From: Spirochaetes bacterium GWE1_32_154
GTDB lineage: Bacteria; Spirochaetota; GWE2-31-10
Reading direction: 5' to 3'
DNA: 48,877 nt
Assembly: GCA_001829315.1 (NCBI GenBank)
Contig: MIAY01000042.1
Location: forward strand, 1-48,877
Shown: in pieces, positions 12,550 through 19,718 of the stretch
Numbering within the stretch: position 1 is the stretch's first letter
Layout: every line of letters starts with the position of its first letter
The notes under the pieces: generated by a model
The model's input: the letters and a program-made list of their open reading frames with translations, nothing else
The model's database searches: none
Told to the model about the DNA's origin: nothing
Made by a program: the position numbers and the translations under genes

Positions 12550-12724
12550 GTTGTACTCCTTACAGAATAATTATGTCATTGAAATATTTATAGCCTTGTA
12601 TACTATTTAACATAAGCTACTGAAAATGTATGTGAAGTAAGTCACAAAACTTTATTTTAATTATAAGAAGCATATAGTTAAGCCAGTTTTATACCGCAGA
12701 TTTTGTAGTAAATGTTTAAACTGA
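12519..12724 (-). repeat. Dispersed promoter repeat, copy 1 (with 5' end of RlmJ-like gene)
   Basis: Positions 12519-12670 appear base for base at 19339-19490, and 12559-12724 recur nearly identically at 36114-36278. The repeat holds a leader with a TAAGGAG ribosome site, -10-like words (TATACA, TTAAAT on the minus strand), a CRP-type palindrome at 12631 and an AT-rich upstream part. Here it drives the RlmJ-like gene and also includes that gene's first ten codons. Confidence 0.85.
12631..12646. promoter_or_regulatory. CRP-type box upstream of the RlmJ-like gene
   Basis: TGTGAAGTAAGTCACA is a perfect match to TGTGA-N6-TCACA. It lies about 82 bp before the ATG of 11677-12549 (minus strand). 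Candidate -10 words TTAAAT and TATACA lie 20 and 28 nt past the box, so the exact promoter geometry is less clear than at the other sites. Confidence 0.65.
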
Positions 12725-12780
12725 CCCAATAATCTATATCAATGAAACGTTGAAATCAGAAACATGCTCAAAAATATTTA

Positions 12781-14725: not shown

Positions 14726-14993
14726 TTAGCGTGGATGAGATTCTTGCTTTTGATATCTTTTGTCCTTAACGCCTGTTTTGTTGGAAATGTGGGCGAGACC
14801 CCATTAAGATATCGTTTGTAAGCATTAAAATCCTTAGCGTGGGTGAAAATTCGTGTTTTCCAGATTTTATGTCCTTAGCACCGGTTTTGTCGGAAATGTG
14901 GGCGAGACCCCGTATAATTGTGTGGCGAAAAGCAAGTGAAAACAGAAATATTTTCCTTAGCGTGGTTTTTGTCGGAAATGAGCTCCAGACCCC
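14726..14993. repeat. Three degenerate tandem repeats, GC-richer than surroundings
   Basis: A unit starting TTAGCGTGG recurs at 14726, 14834 and 14957. Inside are ~41-bp blocks ending in GGGCGAGACCCC at 14762-14802 and 14871-14911, with a diverged third at 14954-14993. On the minus strand they read GGGGTCTCGCCCACATTTCC. The third abuts the broken end of the intron remnant. They may be decayed attC sites with lost cassettes, or another repeat family. Upstream, 14453-14725 is AT-rich with nothing recognisable. Confidence 0.6.
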
Positions 14994-15253
14994 TCAATGG
15001 ACAACTTTACGGCACCTCATCAGTGATTAACTTTCGTTCGTCTTCCAAAAACTCACCTGACAGATTCATGATCTGCCTTTTCCCACAACGTTAACCACCA
15101 AAGACTCTTAATCTCAGCAGCTTGGGGTAGTTTGAAACCAGTTCCTGAAAACAGATTTCGAGGAGCCATTCAGCTTACGCTGATTTCCTCATCAATTGTA
15201 AAGTTACGATTTAATCTCACTCGTGTCGAGTAAGATTAAATCTCGTGGCACAC
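14993..15253 (-). mobile_element. Group II intron remnant, 5' end only
   Basis: Positions 14993-15259 are identical to 17866-18132 except at one base (15012), so this is the first ~261 nt of the intron at 16238-18126. It starts with the same GTGTGCC 5' end (15253 downward) and has the same upstream exon end TTCAAC. The rest of the intron is missing. The 5' exon reads GGCTAACAACTGCTTCAAC, again an attC left half. Loss of the 3' rather than the 5' part is not what incomplete reverse transcription gives. Confidence 0.85.
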
Positions 15254-15305
15254 GTTGAAGCAGTTGTTAGCCGATTTCTATTAGCGATATTCCTTATTGA
15301 ACCTC

Positions 15306-16151
15306 TTACTTATATACTCTCCAACTATTATTTTCAAAAAGATATAATTGGTCACTAATTTTATATGATTCGCTTTTATAAACTTTTGATACAATATCCT
15401 TTAATTTTAGTATTCCCTTTGAATCATTTGCTCCAATACCAATTAAATAATTTCTTGCTGGTATGGCTATTATTATTTTATCTCCATATTCATTTTGAAT
15501 ATTTTCAATTATTATAGGATTCATAATAAGACTACTCTCATGAATCCCATCATATTCTATACTAAATATCCCATCTATCTCTTTAATTTCATAATTCATC
15601 CTATAATTAAAAAGATTACCAATAGCGTATTTAGTTAGTTGCTTATCATTAATATGAAGTAATTTTATTTCTTCTGAGGATAGATATTTCATCTCTTTTT
15701 CTGTTTCTTGTGAAAAAACTATGTAAATAGAATTGAAAAATGGAATAGAGTAAATAATTTTTTCTTTATTAATATCTGGGGCAAGCTCTATGCTTCGATT
15801 TATTGTTGCTTCAATCCATTCTTTACTTCTTATATTTGGGATAATAATTCCTTTTGAGGTTATTATATTAATAGGATTAATGAGTGCTGTACCTAAATAT
15901 GATAAAATTATTCTATCAACGTCTTCTCCATTTTTTATTCGAATATAAGCATTTCCTAGATCAAATTTTCTTTTTTCATTAAAATATGCATAACTAACTA
16001 GTAAAGATCCAGATGTTTCGACTTTACTAATATTAGGTTCATCCTGCAATTTGTTAATAAACATTTGCGTAAACTCTTTTTCACTAATAACTTTATTACA
16101 TCCAAAAAATAATAAAACAAATATTGAAAATAATATGCAATAAGATTTCAA
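15306..16151 (-). CDS. DUF1444-family lipoprotein
   Basis: 281 residues from a TTG start 8 nt after TTAGGAGATG. A signal peptide with lipobox LLFFGC is followed by a DUF1444-like domain: SEKEFTQMFINKL, IIPNIRSKEWIE, IYIVFSQETEKEMKYLS and IIIAIPARNYLIGIGAND in the expected order. The family's function is unknown; most members are cytoplasmic, so the lipoprotein signal is unusual. The gene sits between two attC-like sites, one with the intron and one with the intron remnant, and is a probable cassette. Confidence 0.7.
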   Translation of the reverse strand: MKSYCILFSIFVLLFFGCNKVISEKEFTQMFINKLQDEPNISKVETSGSLLVSYAYFNEKRKFDLGNAYIRIKNGEDVDRIILSYLGTALINPINIITSKGIIIPNIRSKEWIEATINRSIELAPDINKEKIIYSIPFFNSIYIVFSQETEKEMKYLSSEEIKLLHINDKQLTKYAIGNLFNYRMNYEIKEIDGIFSIEYDGIHESSLIMNPIIIENIQNEYGDKIIIAIPARNYLIGIGANDSKGILKLKDIVSKVYKSESYKISDQLYLFENNSWRVYK

Positions 16152-16195: not shown

Positions 16196-16237
16196 GGCTA
16201 ACATTTTGTTAACCTGCGAGGCGTTAGCCGACGTCAG
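16196..16237 (-). repeat. attC right half, downstream exon of the intron
   Basis: After the intron the minus strand reads CTGACGTCGGCTAACGCC, then CAGGTTAACAAAAT and GTTAGCC (16196-16202). Joining it to the 5' exon at 18127-18145 rebuilds a site with GTCTAACA pairing to TGTTAGCC (7 of 8) and AACCTG pairing to CAGGTT (6 of 6), as in an attC hairpin. The next cassette gene (15306-16151) starts 45 nt beyond. Confidence 0.6.
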
Positions 16238-16277
16238 GTTGAGTAGACCGGGGGAATCACACCCCCAGTCTCTCACA

Positions 16278-16311
16278 GAACCGTACGTGACAGTCTCCCG
16301 TCATACGGCTC
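16278..16311 (-). ncRNA. Group II intron domain V
   Basis: The 34-nt minus-strand segment GAGCCGTATGACGGGAGACT... ends CACGTACGGTTC. It folds as the expected domain V: lower stem GAGCCGTATG/CACGTACGGTTC with a bulge, a GGGAGACT-type cap, and AGC in the catalytic triad position of the first strand. It is followed by the domain VI stem. Confidence 0.85.
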
Positions 16312-16327
16312 TTCATATTCAATCGTA

Positions 16328-17563
16328 CTAATTAAAGCCAAATTCCCAATGTACAAAAAGTGTTGGTCTGGTTTTAAGTAAAGCTCTCATAAAGTTATAA
16401 GCTCTTACCCAGCTATTACGTAACTTACGAAACTTGTTCTTAGCCCATTTGACTAAGTTCTTCTGAATCCTATCACAAACTCCTCCTAACGCTGACTTCC
16501 TGAATCTTCCATAGTAGTTTAACCACCCTCTAATAGAAGAATTGATTAACTCCGCCATACCATCAATATCCAAACCTGTACAGGACTGAATTTTTATTGC
16601 CCTGATTTTATCCTTAATCGAGACTTCTGCCTTTTTGCTAATCGCAGGTGAAAAACTTACAAAGTACTAATTCCTATTATTCTTTACTAATCTTGGTCGA
16701 AAAGTAAATCCTAAAAAATCAAACTTCTTCTCAGTATAATCTCCCTTTCGATTATCATCTTTGCAGTAAACAATCTTTGTCTTATCAGGATGAACCATGA
16801 GTTTACATTCTGCTAAACGTACTTTGATCTCTTCAAGAAGTTTTGTTGCTTCTTCAAGACTTCTACAGTGAACAACTAAATCATCAGCATACCTCGCAAA
16901 AGGGTTCTCAGGATGATTTTTCGTAATCCATTTGTCAAACGCATAATGAAGAAATAAATTTGCTAACAGGGGACTTATCACACCACCTTGTGGCGTTCCA
17001 ACTTCTCTGTGAATAAGATTTCCTTCAGAATCTATCGCAGGAGCCTTTAGCCATCTTTCAACATATAGACGAATCCAAGCAGGAGGACTATGAAAATCTA
17101 CAGCTTTCATCATCAATTCATGATCGATATTGTCAAAGAATCCCTTGATATCCAGATCAATTACCCAGTCATATTCCCAGCACCGCTTTCTCGTTACCTC
17201 AAGAGCCTGATGAGCTGACTTTTTAGGTCGATACCCATAGGAATTATGATGAAACAACGGTTCAAGGATAGGCTCGAAATATAACCTTGCAGTCATTTGT
17301 GCCACTCGATCCAATACTGTTGGTATTCCGAGTGGTCTTGTTCCTCCACCTTTCTTTGGGATATCTACCCGTTTAACCGCCATGGGAAAGTAACTACCGC
17401 TTGACATTCTATTCCAAAGTTTATACAGAGAATCTTTTTCATTCTCTGCCATTGCTTCGAGCGTTAATCCGTCAATGCCTGCAGAACCTCTATTCCGTTT
17501 AACAAGCTGATATGCATCCCAAATCATTTGCTTTGAGATTCTGTACGATTTTGCCTGTTCCAA
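16328..17563 (-). pseudogene. ltrA: Group II intron reverse transcriptase/maturase, interrupted by one in-frame TAG
   Basis: The frame starts at a TTG after GGGAGGAACTA and encodes 298 residues to a TAG at 16667-16669, then continues in the same frame (YFVSFSPAISKKAEV...) to 16328: 411 codons in all, one stop inside. RT motifs are intact: RPLGIPTVLDRVAQ, SYGYRPKKSAHQAL, DLDIKGFFDNIDH, GTPQGGVISPLL and YADD (~225-228). The part after the stop holds the maturase/thumb region IRGWLNYYGRF. Without readthrough the maturase domain is lost, so splicing would fail in cis. The stop could be real decay, suppression or a base error. Confidence 0.88.
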
Positions 17564-18126
17564 TAGTTCCTCCCATTTCTAGTTGACCACTGAAACAGAC
17601 ATGAATATGTCAGCCCCTTCGCTCCATTTCCATTACAGAAACTTCATCACTACTACGAGCTGATCCGCCCCTGTGCCGTGCATCAGTATTTCCAACTTAC
17701 GGGTTCTCCGCTTGAAGTTTTCCCTTAGCATCACGACGACAGGTTCCCACGTTCCTTACAATAGCCTATTTTTAGATCACGCCACTTCTATGCCGGAGAC
17801 CGCAAACACAGTAATCAGGTTTCCTGCTTGCTTGTCAGACTGTTTCAACGATCAGTCCTTTTGATCTCAATGGACAACTTTACGACACCTCATCAGTGAT
17901 TAACTTTCGTTCGTCTTCCAAAAACTCACCTGACAGATTCATGATCTGCCTTTTCCCACAACGTTAACCACCAAAGACTCTTAATCTCAGCAGCTTGGGG
18001 TAGTTTGAAACCAGTTCCTGAAAACAGATTTCGAGGAGCCATTCAGCTTACGCTGATTTCCTCATCAATTGTAAAGTTACGATTTAATCTCACTCGTGTC
18101 GAGTAAGATTAAATCTCGTGGCACAC

Positions 18127-18145
18127 GTTGAAACCTTTGTTAGAC
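18127..18145 (-). repeat. attC left half, upstream exon of the intron
   Basis: The minus strand reads GTCTAACAAAGGTTTCAAC followed directly by the intron's GTGTG. GTCTAAC fits RYYYAAC, and its TAA is the stop codon of the HAD-like gene (18140-18142), as in classical cassettes whose attC overlaps the stop. The second intron target has the near-identical GGCTAACAACTGCTTCAAC. Confidence 0.6.
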
Positions 18146-18697
18146 TAATTTTTCAAATATTTCTTCAAGTTTTTCAACGTTGTTTATACAATAGGTCGCA
18201 TCTATTATTATTCGATTTGAAATTAGTACAGTTTTAATATTTGATCTGATTCCAGCTTCAACGTCAATATCTCTATCTCCTATTCCTATTGTTTCTTCTC
18301 TTTTAAGGGAGTATTTATTTATCAAATATTCAAAAGAATCGGAAGATGGTTTTTCTTTAAAATTATTTTCCTTACAAATTATTTCAATAAACCTATTTTC
18401 CAATTTTTCTTTATTCAATTTTATTGTCAAAGAATTTCTATCTCGGTGAGTAACTAAAAAATGCTTTTTACCATCATTTTTCATGAGAATTCTTTTCACG
18501 GTCGGAAATGCAGTTTCTTCTTCACCATGTTCATCATAGAAAGTTCTTATTTCTTTTAATAGAGGTTCATACTCTAACCTATACTCATCTGATATAACTT
18601 TGACGCAATACTTTGTGTCAATATACACCAGGTTCTCAATTCGCTCTCTATTAATATCAAGCCTATATTTTTTGTTAAGATTAGAATCAAATAACAA
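18140..18697 (-). CDS. HAD-like hydrolase, N-terminus missing
   Basis: 185 residues from a TTG. Recognisable HAD features are HFLVTHRDRN (motif II Ser/Thr position), KEKPSSDSFEYLINKYSL (motif III Lys region) and IGIGDRDIDVEAGIRSNIKTVLIS (motif IV acidic pair). The N-terminal DxDGT motif with the nucleophilic Asp is absent. Just upstream, in another frame, is a GNAT fragment, so the 5' end has probably been replaced by recombination. Phosphatase activity is unlikely without the nucleophile. It may better be treated as a pseudogene. Confidence 0.6.
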   Translation of the reverse strand: MLFDSNLNKKYRLDINRERIENLVYIDTKYCVKVISDEYRLEYEPLLKEIRTFYDEHGEEETAFPTVKRILMKNDGKKHFLVTHRDRNSLTIKLNKEKLENRFIEIICKENNFKEKPSSDSFEYLINKYSLKREETIGIGDRDIDVEAGIRSNIKTVLISNRIIIDATYCINNVEKLEEIFEKLV

Positions 18698-19274: not shown

Positions 19275-19320
19275 TTTACTTTTTATACCTACCTTATAGA
19301 TCTTTTTTTATCACCAATGT

Positions 19321-19339
19321 GCGATAGCGTCCGTCGAAC
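19321..19339 (-). repeat. attC core fused to a truncated gene copy
   Basis: The minus strand reads GTTCGACGGACGCTATCGC. The G before TTCGAC is the last base shared with the RlmJ-like gene copy (AATCGGCG). The join between promoter repeat copy 2 and the GNAT unit therefore falls at the G^TT position used by integron integrases. CGGACG after the core is shared with 10548-10567 and with the site at 16196. Confidence 0.45.
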
Positions 19340-19490
19340 GCCGATTCTTCCATAATGCTTATAACTCATGTTGTACTCCTTACAGAATAATTATGTCATT
19401 GAAATATTTATAGCCTTGTATACTATTTAACATAAGCTACTGAAAATGTATGTGAAGTAAGTCACAAAACTTTATTTTAATTATAAGAAG
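19339..19490 (-). repeat. Dispersed promoter repeat, copy 2
   Basis: An exact 152-bp copy of 12519-12670: CRP-type box, leader, ribosome site and the first ten codons of the RlmJ-like gene (MSYKHYGRIG), after which the sequence switches to an attC-like core. It could now serve as the promoter for the GNAT gene 18831-19274, with a short truncated leader frame. An inverted repeat (19487-19537) begins at its upstream edge. Confidence 0.85.
19451..19466. promoter_or_regulatory. CRP-type box in repeat copy 2
   Basis: TGTGAAGTAAGTCACA, a perfect TGTGA-N6-TCACA match, identical to the boxes at 12631 and 36186. It would place the GNAT unit downstream under the same control if the repeat is still an active promoter. 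Confidence 0.6.
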
Positions 19491-19537
19491 ACAGAACTCA
19501 AAAATCTTTAACTCATCGATTTTTGAGTTCTGTCTTC
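19487..19537 (-). terminator. 20-bp perfect inverted repeat hairpin
   Basis: Arms 19487-19506 (starting GAAGACAGAACTC) and 19518-19537 are perfectly complementary over 20 bp with an 11-nt loop. On the minus strand it follows the IS256-type fragment and the alpha/beta hydrolase gene and is followed by TTATAATT. It would form a very stable hairpin and stop read-through into repeat copy 2. It might also be an element end. Confidence 0.5.
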
Positions 19538-19680
19538 ACTTTTAACCAAAATTTTGCACTTTTTATTAAGTTGCAATTCAAAATCACTTTCACGCTCACG
19601 AGGTACTTCTATCGTCGTTTTACCGAAATTCCCATTACTGGTCTTTGGCGTTTTACCATTTCGAGAATTAATAAATATCT
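19508..19680 (-). pseudogene. IS256/mutator-type transposase fragment
   Basis: A minus-strand frame downstream of the hydrolase gene reads IFINSRNGKTPKTSNGNFG then KTTIEVPRERESDFELQLNKK before ending in TAA. The order 'NSRNG-KT----G--IEVPR-R---FE-QL-KK' is characteristic of the N-terminal region of IS256-family transposases. The rest of the gene is absent. A 25-bp stretch at its start (19678-19702) recurs exactly at 38256-38280. Confidence 0.6.
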
Positions 19681-19718
19681 ATGACCTATTTTTACACGAA
19701 TCATTCTTGCATACCTTA

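Follow-up and report, generated by a model that had tools for sequence, protein, structure and literature searches.

A group IIB intron that splits an attC site in cassette orientation, with guide sequences that appear to match the attC core

How does a group II intron come to split an attC site while pointing in the same direction as the cassettes? A 2015 review describes insertion into attC as a speciality of group IIC introns (PMC4424553). The group IIC-attC introns target the bottom strand of attC, where they insert at TTGT/T in R″ and lie against the direction of the cassettes; the attC hairpin takes the role of IBS2 (PMC7923331). We analyzed a 48,877-nt stretch of DNA from Spirochaetes bacterium GWE1_32_154 (contig MIAY01000042.1; hereafter the window), in which an earlier note made from the letters alone had placed a group II intron in the left arm of an attC-like site, in cassette orientation, and had proposed a different targeting mode. 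The proposal turned on the class of the intron, its exon-binding sequences, the targets of any other copies and whether the minus strand, on which the intron lies, is the top or the bottom strand of attC.

The element is a complete group II intron (Table 1). Its 5′ end at position 18126 reads GTGTGCC, as in nearly all relatives, and its 3′ end at position 16238 reads ..CTACTCAAC and coincides exactly with the end of the Rfam domain V–VI model. Because the start GTGTGCCACGA and the end ..CTACTC(G/A)AC are common to the relatives, the boundaries can be fixed at 16238 and 18126, the limits that had been given before. The intron combines GUGYG..AY ends, a domain I–IV core, domains V–VI and a reverse transcriptase–maturase in domain IV, which makes it a member of group II. 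In the alignment, domain V opens with GAGCC and thus has AGC as its catalytic triad, as in group IIB; the IBS1–EBS1, IBS2–EBS2 and IBS3–EBS3 pairings described below point to the same group. The intron-encoded protein (IEP) is full-length except for a single in-frame stop, the TAG at 16667–16669, which separates the reverse transcriptase and X domains and suggests that this copy can no longer move unaided. No endonuclease (En) domain was found in the IEP of the window intron, either by profile matches or in the translation. NCBIfam and solved structures give no separation of IEP classes (D, E or other).

Table 1. Intron, target and cassette features in the window (positions are those of the whole stretch; intron nt are counted from the intron 5′ end).
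Feature	Position	Strand	Basis
Complete group II intron, 1,889 nt	16238..18126	−	Rfam RF01999 (90 bits), RF00029 (66.7 bits); ends compared with relatives
Domain I–IV core	17928–18047	−	Rfam
Domains V–VI	16238..16313	−	RF00029; fold z −6.6; alignment
IEP, reverse transcriptase part, ends at in-frame TAG	16667..17563	−	TIGR04416 371 bits; RVT_1; translation
IEP, maturase (X/GIIM) part, same frame beyond TAG	16328..16573	−	PF08388 39.8 bits
EBS1 GUUGAA, intron nt 278–283; 6/6 with TTCAAC (both copies)	17844..17849	−	covariation in relatives
EBS2 AGUUGU, intron nt 248–253; 6/6 at copy 2 (ACAACT), 4/6 at copy 1 (ACAAAG)	17874..17879	−	covariation in relatives
EBS3 G, intron nt 339; pairs with C+1 of 3′ exon (copy 1)	17788	−	column search, 13 introns
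Left part of split attC: R″ GTCTAAC and start of L″, ..TTCAAC; contains IBS1 (18127–18132) and IBS2 (18135–18140)	18127..18145	−	
Right part of split attC: remaining L″, terminal loop, L′ GCAGGTTAA, R′ GTTAGCC; IBS3 = C at 16237	16196..16237	−	
Upstream cassette gene, HAD hydrolase, TAA stop within R″	18140..18697	−	ORF and profile matches
Downstream cassette gene, 281 aa, without family match, between both attC sequences	15306..16151	−	
Second intron copy, intron nt 1–261 only, 3′ part lost	14993..15253	−	sequence comparison
attC-like half-site CGGCTAACAACTGCTTCAAC, 5′ of copy 2; 12/12 IBS1 + IBS2 positions pair with EBS1 + EBS2	15254..15273	−	

Deletion of 16238–18126 yields GTCTAACAAAGGTTTCAACCTGACGTCGGCTAACGCCTCGCAGGTTAACAAAATGTTAGCC, a 61-nt site in which 7 of the 8 R pairs and all 6 L pairs form and the flanks meet as GTCTAACAAAGGTTTCAAC/CTGACGTCGGCTAACGCCTCGCAGGTTAACAAAATGTTAGCC. 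As a control, 1,889 nt were cut out at every position on both strands of the window (93,376 positions): apart from 16238–18126, no position reached 7 R and 6 L pairs, and the two that reached 7 and 5 lack attC motifs. The rebuilt site has the R″/R′ and L″/L′ pairing and the extra L″ base of an attC, and its R′ GTTAGCC differs from GTTRRRY at one position. An intact attC at G000:C29:29969 is likewise 61 nt long, is identical to the rebuilt site at 43 of 61 positions and has GTTAACAAAATGTTAG unbroken. Excision of the intron thus does rebuild a hairpin site, as the earlier note had claimed; the L-box pairing that it had drawn, AACCTG with CAGGTT, has to be corrected to TT(C)AACCTG with CAGGTTAA. 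A relaxed finder returned only chance hairpins as further attC sites in the window.

The polarity of the split site can be read from its surroundings and from the site itself. The TAA stop of the upstream ORF (18140–18142) falls within R″ GTCTAAC, an overlap of left box and stop codon that had been noticed before, and the arrangement is the same at the C29 attC. In the rebuilt site L″ has an extra C (TTCAACCTG, compared with TTAACCTG in L′), which marks the polarity; an extra base in L″ is the usual asymmetry of attC, and the strand selectivity of attC has been attributed to extrahelical bases. An integron integrase is encoded in the same genome (TIGR02249, 397 bits; cut-off 265). The cassette genes and attC repeats beside it lead away from the integrase gene and show CTAACAA..TTnAAC on the strand of the genes; the resident attC sites, which point away from the divergent integrase gene, agree with the polarity inferred for the split site. 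The gene order with the stop in R″, the extra L″ C and the match to the resident sites identify the minus strand as the attC top strand and not the bottom strand. Intron and cassettes therefore share their orientation, with the insertion at TTCAAC/C inside L″, and here the earlier description held up in its direction, its insertion point in the left arm and its contrast with the group IIC-attC introns.

The integrase gene lies with a divergent array of long (~110 nt) attC-like repeats, CTAACAACCGATTTAACACCGACTCGG.., at G000:C2:45432–54309 (L026/L027). Several repeats of this type stand at contig ends (including C10 and C39), and the assembly has thus probably broken up the array. Within the window, two intergenic stretches (12550–12780 and 19275–19718) carry near-identical sequence of ~120 nt (CTTATAATTAAAATAAAGTTTTGTGACTTACTTCACATAC..GTAAGGAGTACAAC) ahead of a minus-strand gene start, which looks as if a promoter or leader had been duplicated.

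We then asked how the intron recognizes its target. We aligned the window intron with 19 relatives over their 5′ regions and set each against its own 5′ exon; covariation for EBS1, EBS2 and EBS3 was drawn from 13–18 relatives. In nearly all relatives the hexamer at nt 278–283 is complementary to the six bases that end the 5′ exon; in most of them the loop at nt 248–253 pairs with positions −14 to −9 of this exon, or with a stretch shifted by one base. Of the 12 introns with a letter at nt 339, 10 have one that matches the opening base of the 3′ exon. Among 13 introns the mean pairing was 5.42 for EBS1 (3.82 with exons permuted) and 5.00 for EBS2 (3.98 permuted), and in both cases none of 20,000 permutations reached the observed value. 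The three guides recovered in this way for the window intron match the attC core. By their pairings and positions they lie on the conserved R″ edge (TAACAA) and the conserved L″ box (TTCAA), and the pairing of EBS1 takes in the polarity-marking extra C of L″. The marks of group IIC-attC introns are absent, namely a bottom-strand insertion opposite to the cassettes at TTGT/T and a short EBS1 (3–4 bp) without EBS2.

The 4.03-Mb assembly contains one other copy of the intron, truncated and downstream of the 281-aa cassette gene, and none beyond these two. The copies differ by about one base over their 261-nt overlap, and their flanks differ, which indicates separate insertion. The half-site that precedes copy 2 has a 17-nt core, CTAACAACTGCTTCAAC, in common with an attC-like site at G000:C34:121737; it is judged to be attC from its left half alone, as the right half has gone with the 3′ part of the intron. 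Both copies in the genome (2/2) lie at attC sequences, at the very same point and in cassette orientation, and the possibility that most copies would prove to lie elsewhere did not materialize. Copy 2 retains the 5′ end and lacks the 3′ part, the opposite of what aborted reverse transcription leaves behind, and novel sequence starts directly after nt 261; later deletion or recombination is the likelier cause. Three degenerate copies of a 51- to 63-nt repeat (..TTTTGTCGGAAATGTGGGCGAGACCCC) adjoin the truncated copy at 14740–14993.

Some of the relatives (about 53–65% protein identity) lie in other reverse transcriptase genes, in the part that codes for YADD; others lie in or next to insertion sequences or elsewhere, and no recognizable attC was found at their insertion sites. 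Judged by these sites, the aim at attC is therefore a property of the guides of this intron and not of the wider family. Of 393 genomes of the phylum, this one alone has the attC–intron junction TAACAANNNNTTVAANGTGYGNC, and a search of 369 genomes from the class of locus L013 gave no instance of it. Viral contigs gave 28 junction matches, all without the intron start GTGYGCCACGA and in a number near that expected by chance on a rough estimate, and a protein-based scan of viral contigs gave no match. The relative at L014 has an attC-looking 3′ exon (GGGCGTTCAGCCG..); it rebuilds no attC and adjoins insertion sequences. A candidate at L151 was a chance match within a gene, and a relative intron protein on a Shigella sonnei virulence plasmid was left out of the analysis. 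A related intron of ~420 nt in the same phylum (L069:4915–5336, G020:C68) has no ORF; only ~200 nt separate its domain I–IV core from domain V, too little for a reverse transcriptase gene.

We consider it quite probable that the window element is a group IIB intron that retrohomes without an endonuclease domain and that its guides pair with the conserved R″–L″ segment of the attC top strand. A group IIC-attC-type or otherwise structure-guided intron that recognizes the folded attC hairpin could also be imagined, since the intron has an attC as its target and group IIC introns use attC hairpins as their upstream stem–loop. However, this intron has an EBS2 and a 6-bp EBS1, both backed by covariation, its domain V triad is AGC and not CGC, its insertion point is inside L″ of the top strand, where a group IIC-attC intron would use TTGT/T in the bottom-strand R″, and upstream of this point there is no complete hairpin; recognition of the folded site is thus highly improbable. 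We also find it improbable, if less strikingly so, that the guides simply match a common sequence of which attC is one occurrence among others, with no biological link to integrons. The relatives do not target attC, and ACAANNNNTTCAAC has 46 matches in the genome, the majority of them outside attC; about nine lie in attC or longer attC-like repeats (attC sites in the genome were catalogued by pattern). With these counts, base pairing alone would send both copies to attC with a probability of about 4% (near 0.04), a figure for n = 2 insertions in one genome. Both copies nevertheless lie at attC, each of the three guide elements falls on positions conserved in attC, and CTAACAANNNNTTCAACNNG has four exact matches in the genome, of which two are the occupied sites and the other two are of attC type. 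There is a suggestion of a possible preference for attC beyond pairing (single-stranded attC, replication).

The target may instead have been chosen in another host, the intron having come pre-inserted in a cassette moved by the integrase. In this assembly both cassettes are apart from the integrase array, and the junction is absent from the other 392 genomes of the phylum that were searched, as such an origin would allow. Against it, two attC sequences were hit by copies about one base apart over the 261-nt overlap, which suggests at least one recent jump, perhaps in this lineage. We regard such an arrival as unlikely, though with some claim to attention, and it would leave the targeting mode unchanged.

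On the guide-paired homing that we favor, the intron ribonucleoprotein would have reverse-spliced into the attC top strand, and target-primed reverse transcription would then have copied the intron into DNA. The target was probably single-stranded or replicating at that moment, because the IEP has no endonuclease domain. Its cassette orientation means that the intron could be transcribed along with the cassettes and spliced from cassette mRNA. The split site itself is probably disabled for the integrase, as R″–L″ and L′–R′ are held 1.9 kb apart. The whole appears to be a mobile intron of a common type that has been re-aimed through its guides at a conserved integron site, from the side opposite to that used by the known specialized introns. 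A broader reading, in which a IIB lineage has evolved guides to the top-strand attC consensus and homes to cassette boundaries generally, in sense orientation and spliceable from cassette mRNA, is tentative and in our view rather doubtful; if true, it would provide an RNA-guided counterpart to the hairpin-guided group IIC-attC introns.

A IIB intron would here reach the type of site used by group IIC introns by plain base pairing on the other strand. The attC sites predicted to be vulnerable are those with ACAA-N4-TTCAAC, from which a simple mutational test follows, and attC cores suggest themselves as a programmable landing site for IIB targeting vectors. The case also bears on what introns do to cassettes, which may be reshaped or frozen when attC is split.

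The different targeting mode of the earlier note holds relative to group IIC-attC introns; the homing itself is ordinary IIB EBS/IBS pairing, and reports of group II introns in cassette arrays, in the same orientation or on the top strand, already exist (PMC7923331). In the searchable literature, whose coverage is incomplete so that priority is not proven, we found no IIB intron that splits attC with guides matched to its core. Among the earlier exceptions to the group IIC rule is a Halorhodospira CALIN with truncated IIB introns of class E. A group IIC intron of Enterobacter cloacae with an unusual target (Rodriguez-Martinez 2012, cited in PMC7923331) lies, by the citing description, in the attC top strand and in cassette orientation; that description makes it resemble the window intron in strand and direction, but it belongs to IIC. 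The geometry of exon recognition is that of RmInt1, a group IIB intron of Sinorhizobium meliloti (IBS1 at −7 to −1, IBS2 at −13 to −9 and EBS3 329G with C+1); the likeness is one of guide geometry only, as the RmInt1 exons differ (IBS2 UUCAU) and are not attC. UHB.I2, a group IIB1/CL1 intron from the Tanatar-5 soda lake, lies immediately after an attC in the same orientation as the cassettes (PMC7923331) and, like the window intron, is a IIB intron without an endonuclease domain. It differs in its ends (UUGCG..GU) and in that only the first 2 nt of its 3′ exon are conserved, whereas the window intron splits the attC and its guides spell the attC core. S.ma.I2 and its group IIC-attC relatives likewise have no endonuclease domain and are likewise inserted in attC; compared with them, the window intron is a IIB intron, placed inside L″ of the top strand, running along the cassettes and using EBS1, EBS2 and EBS3.
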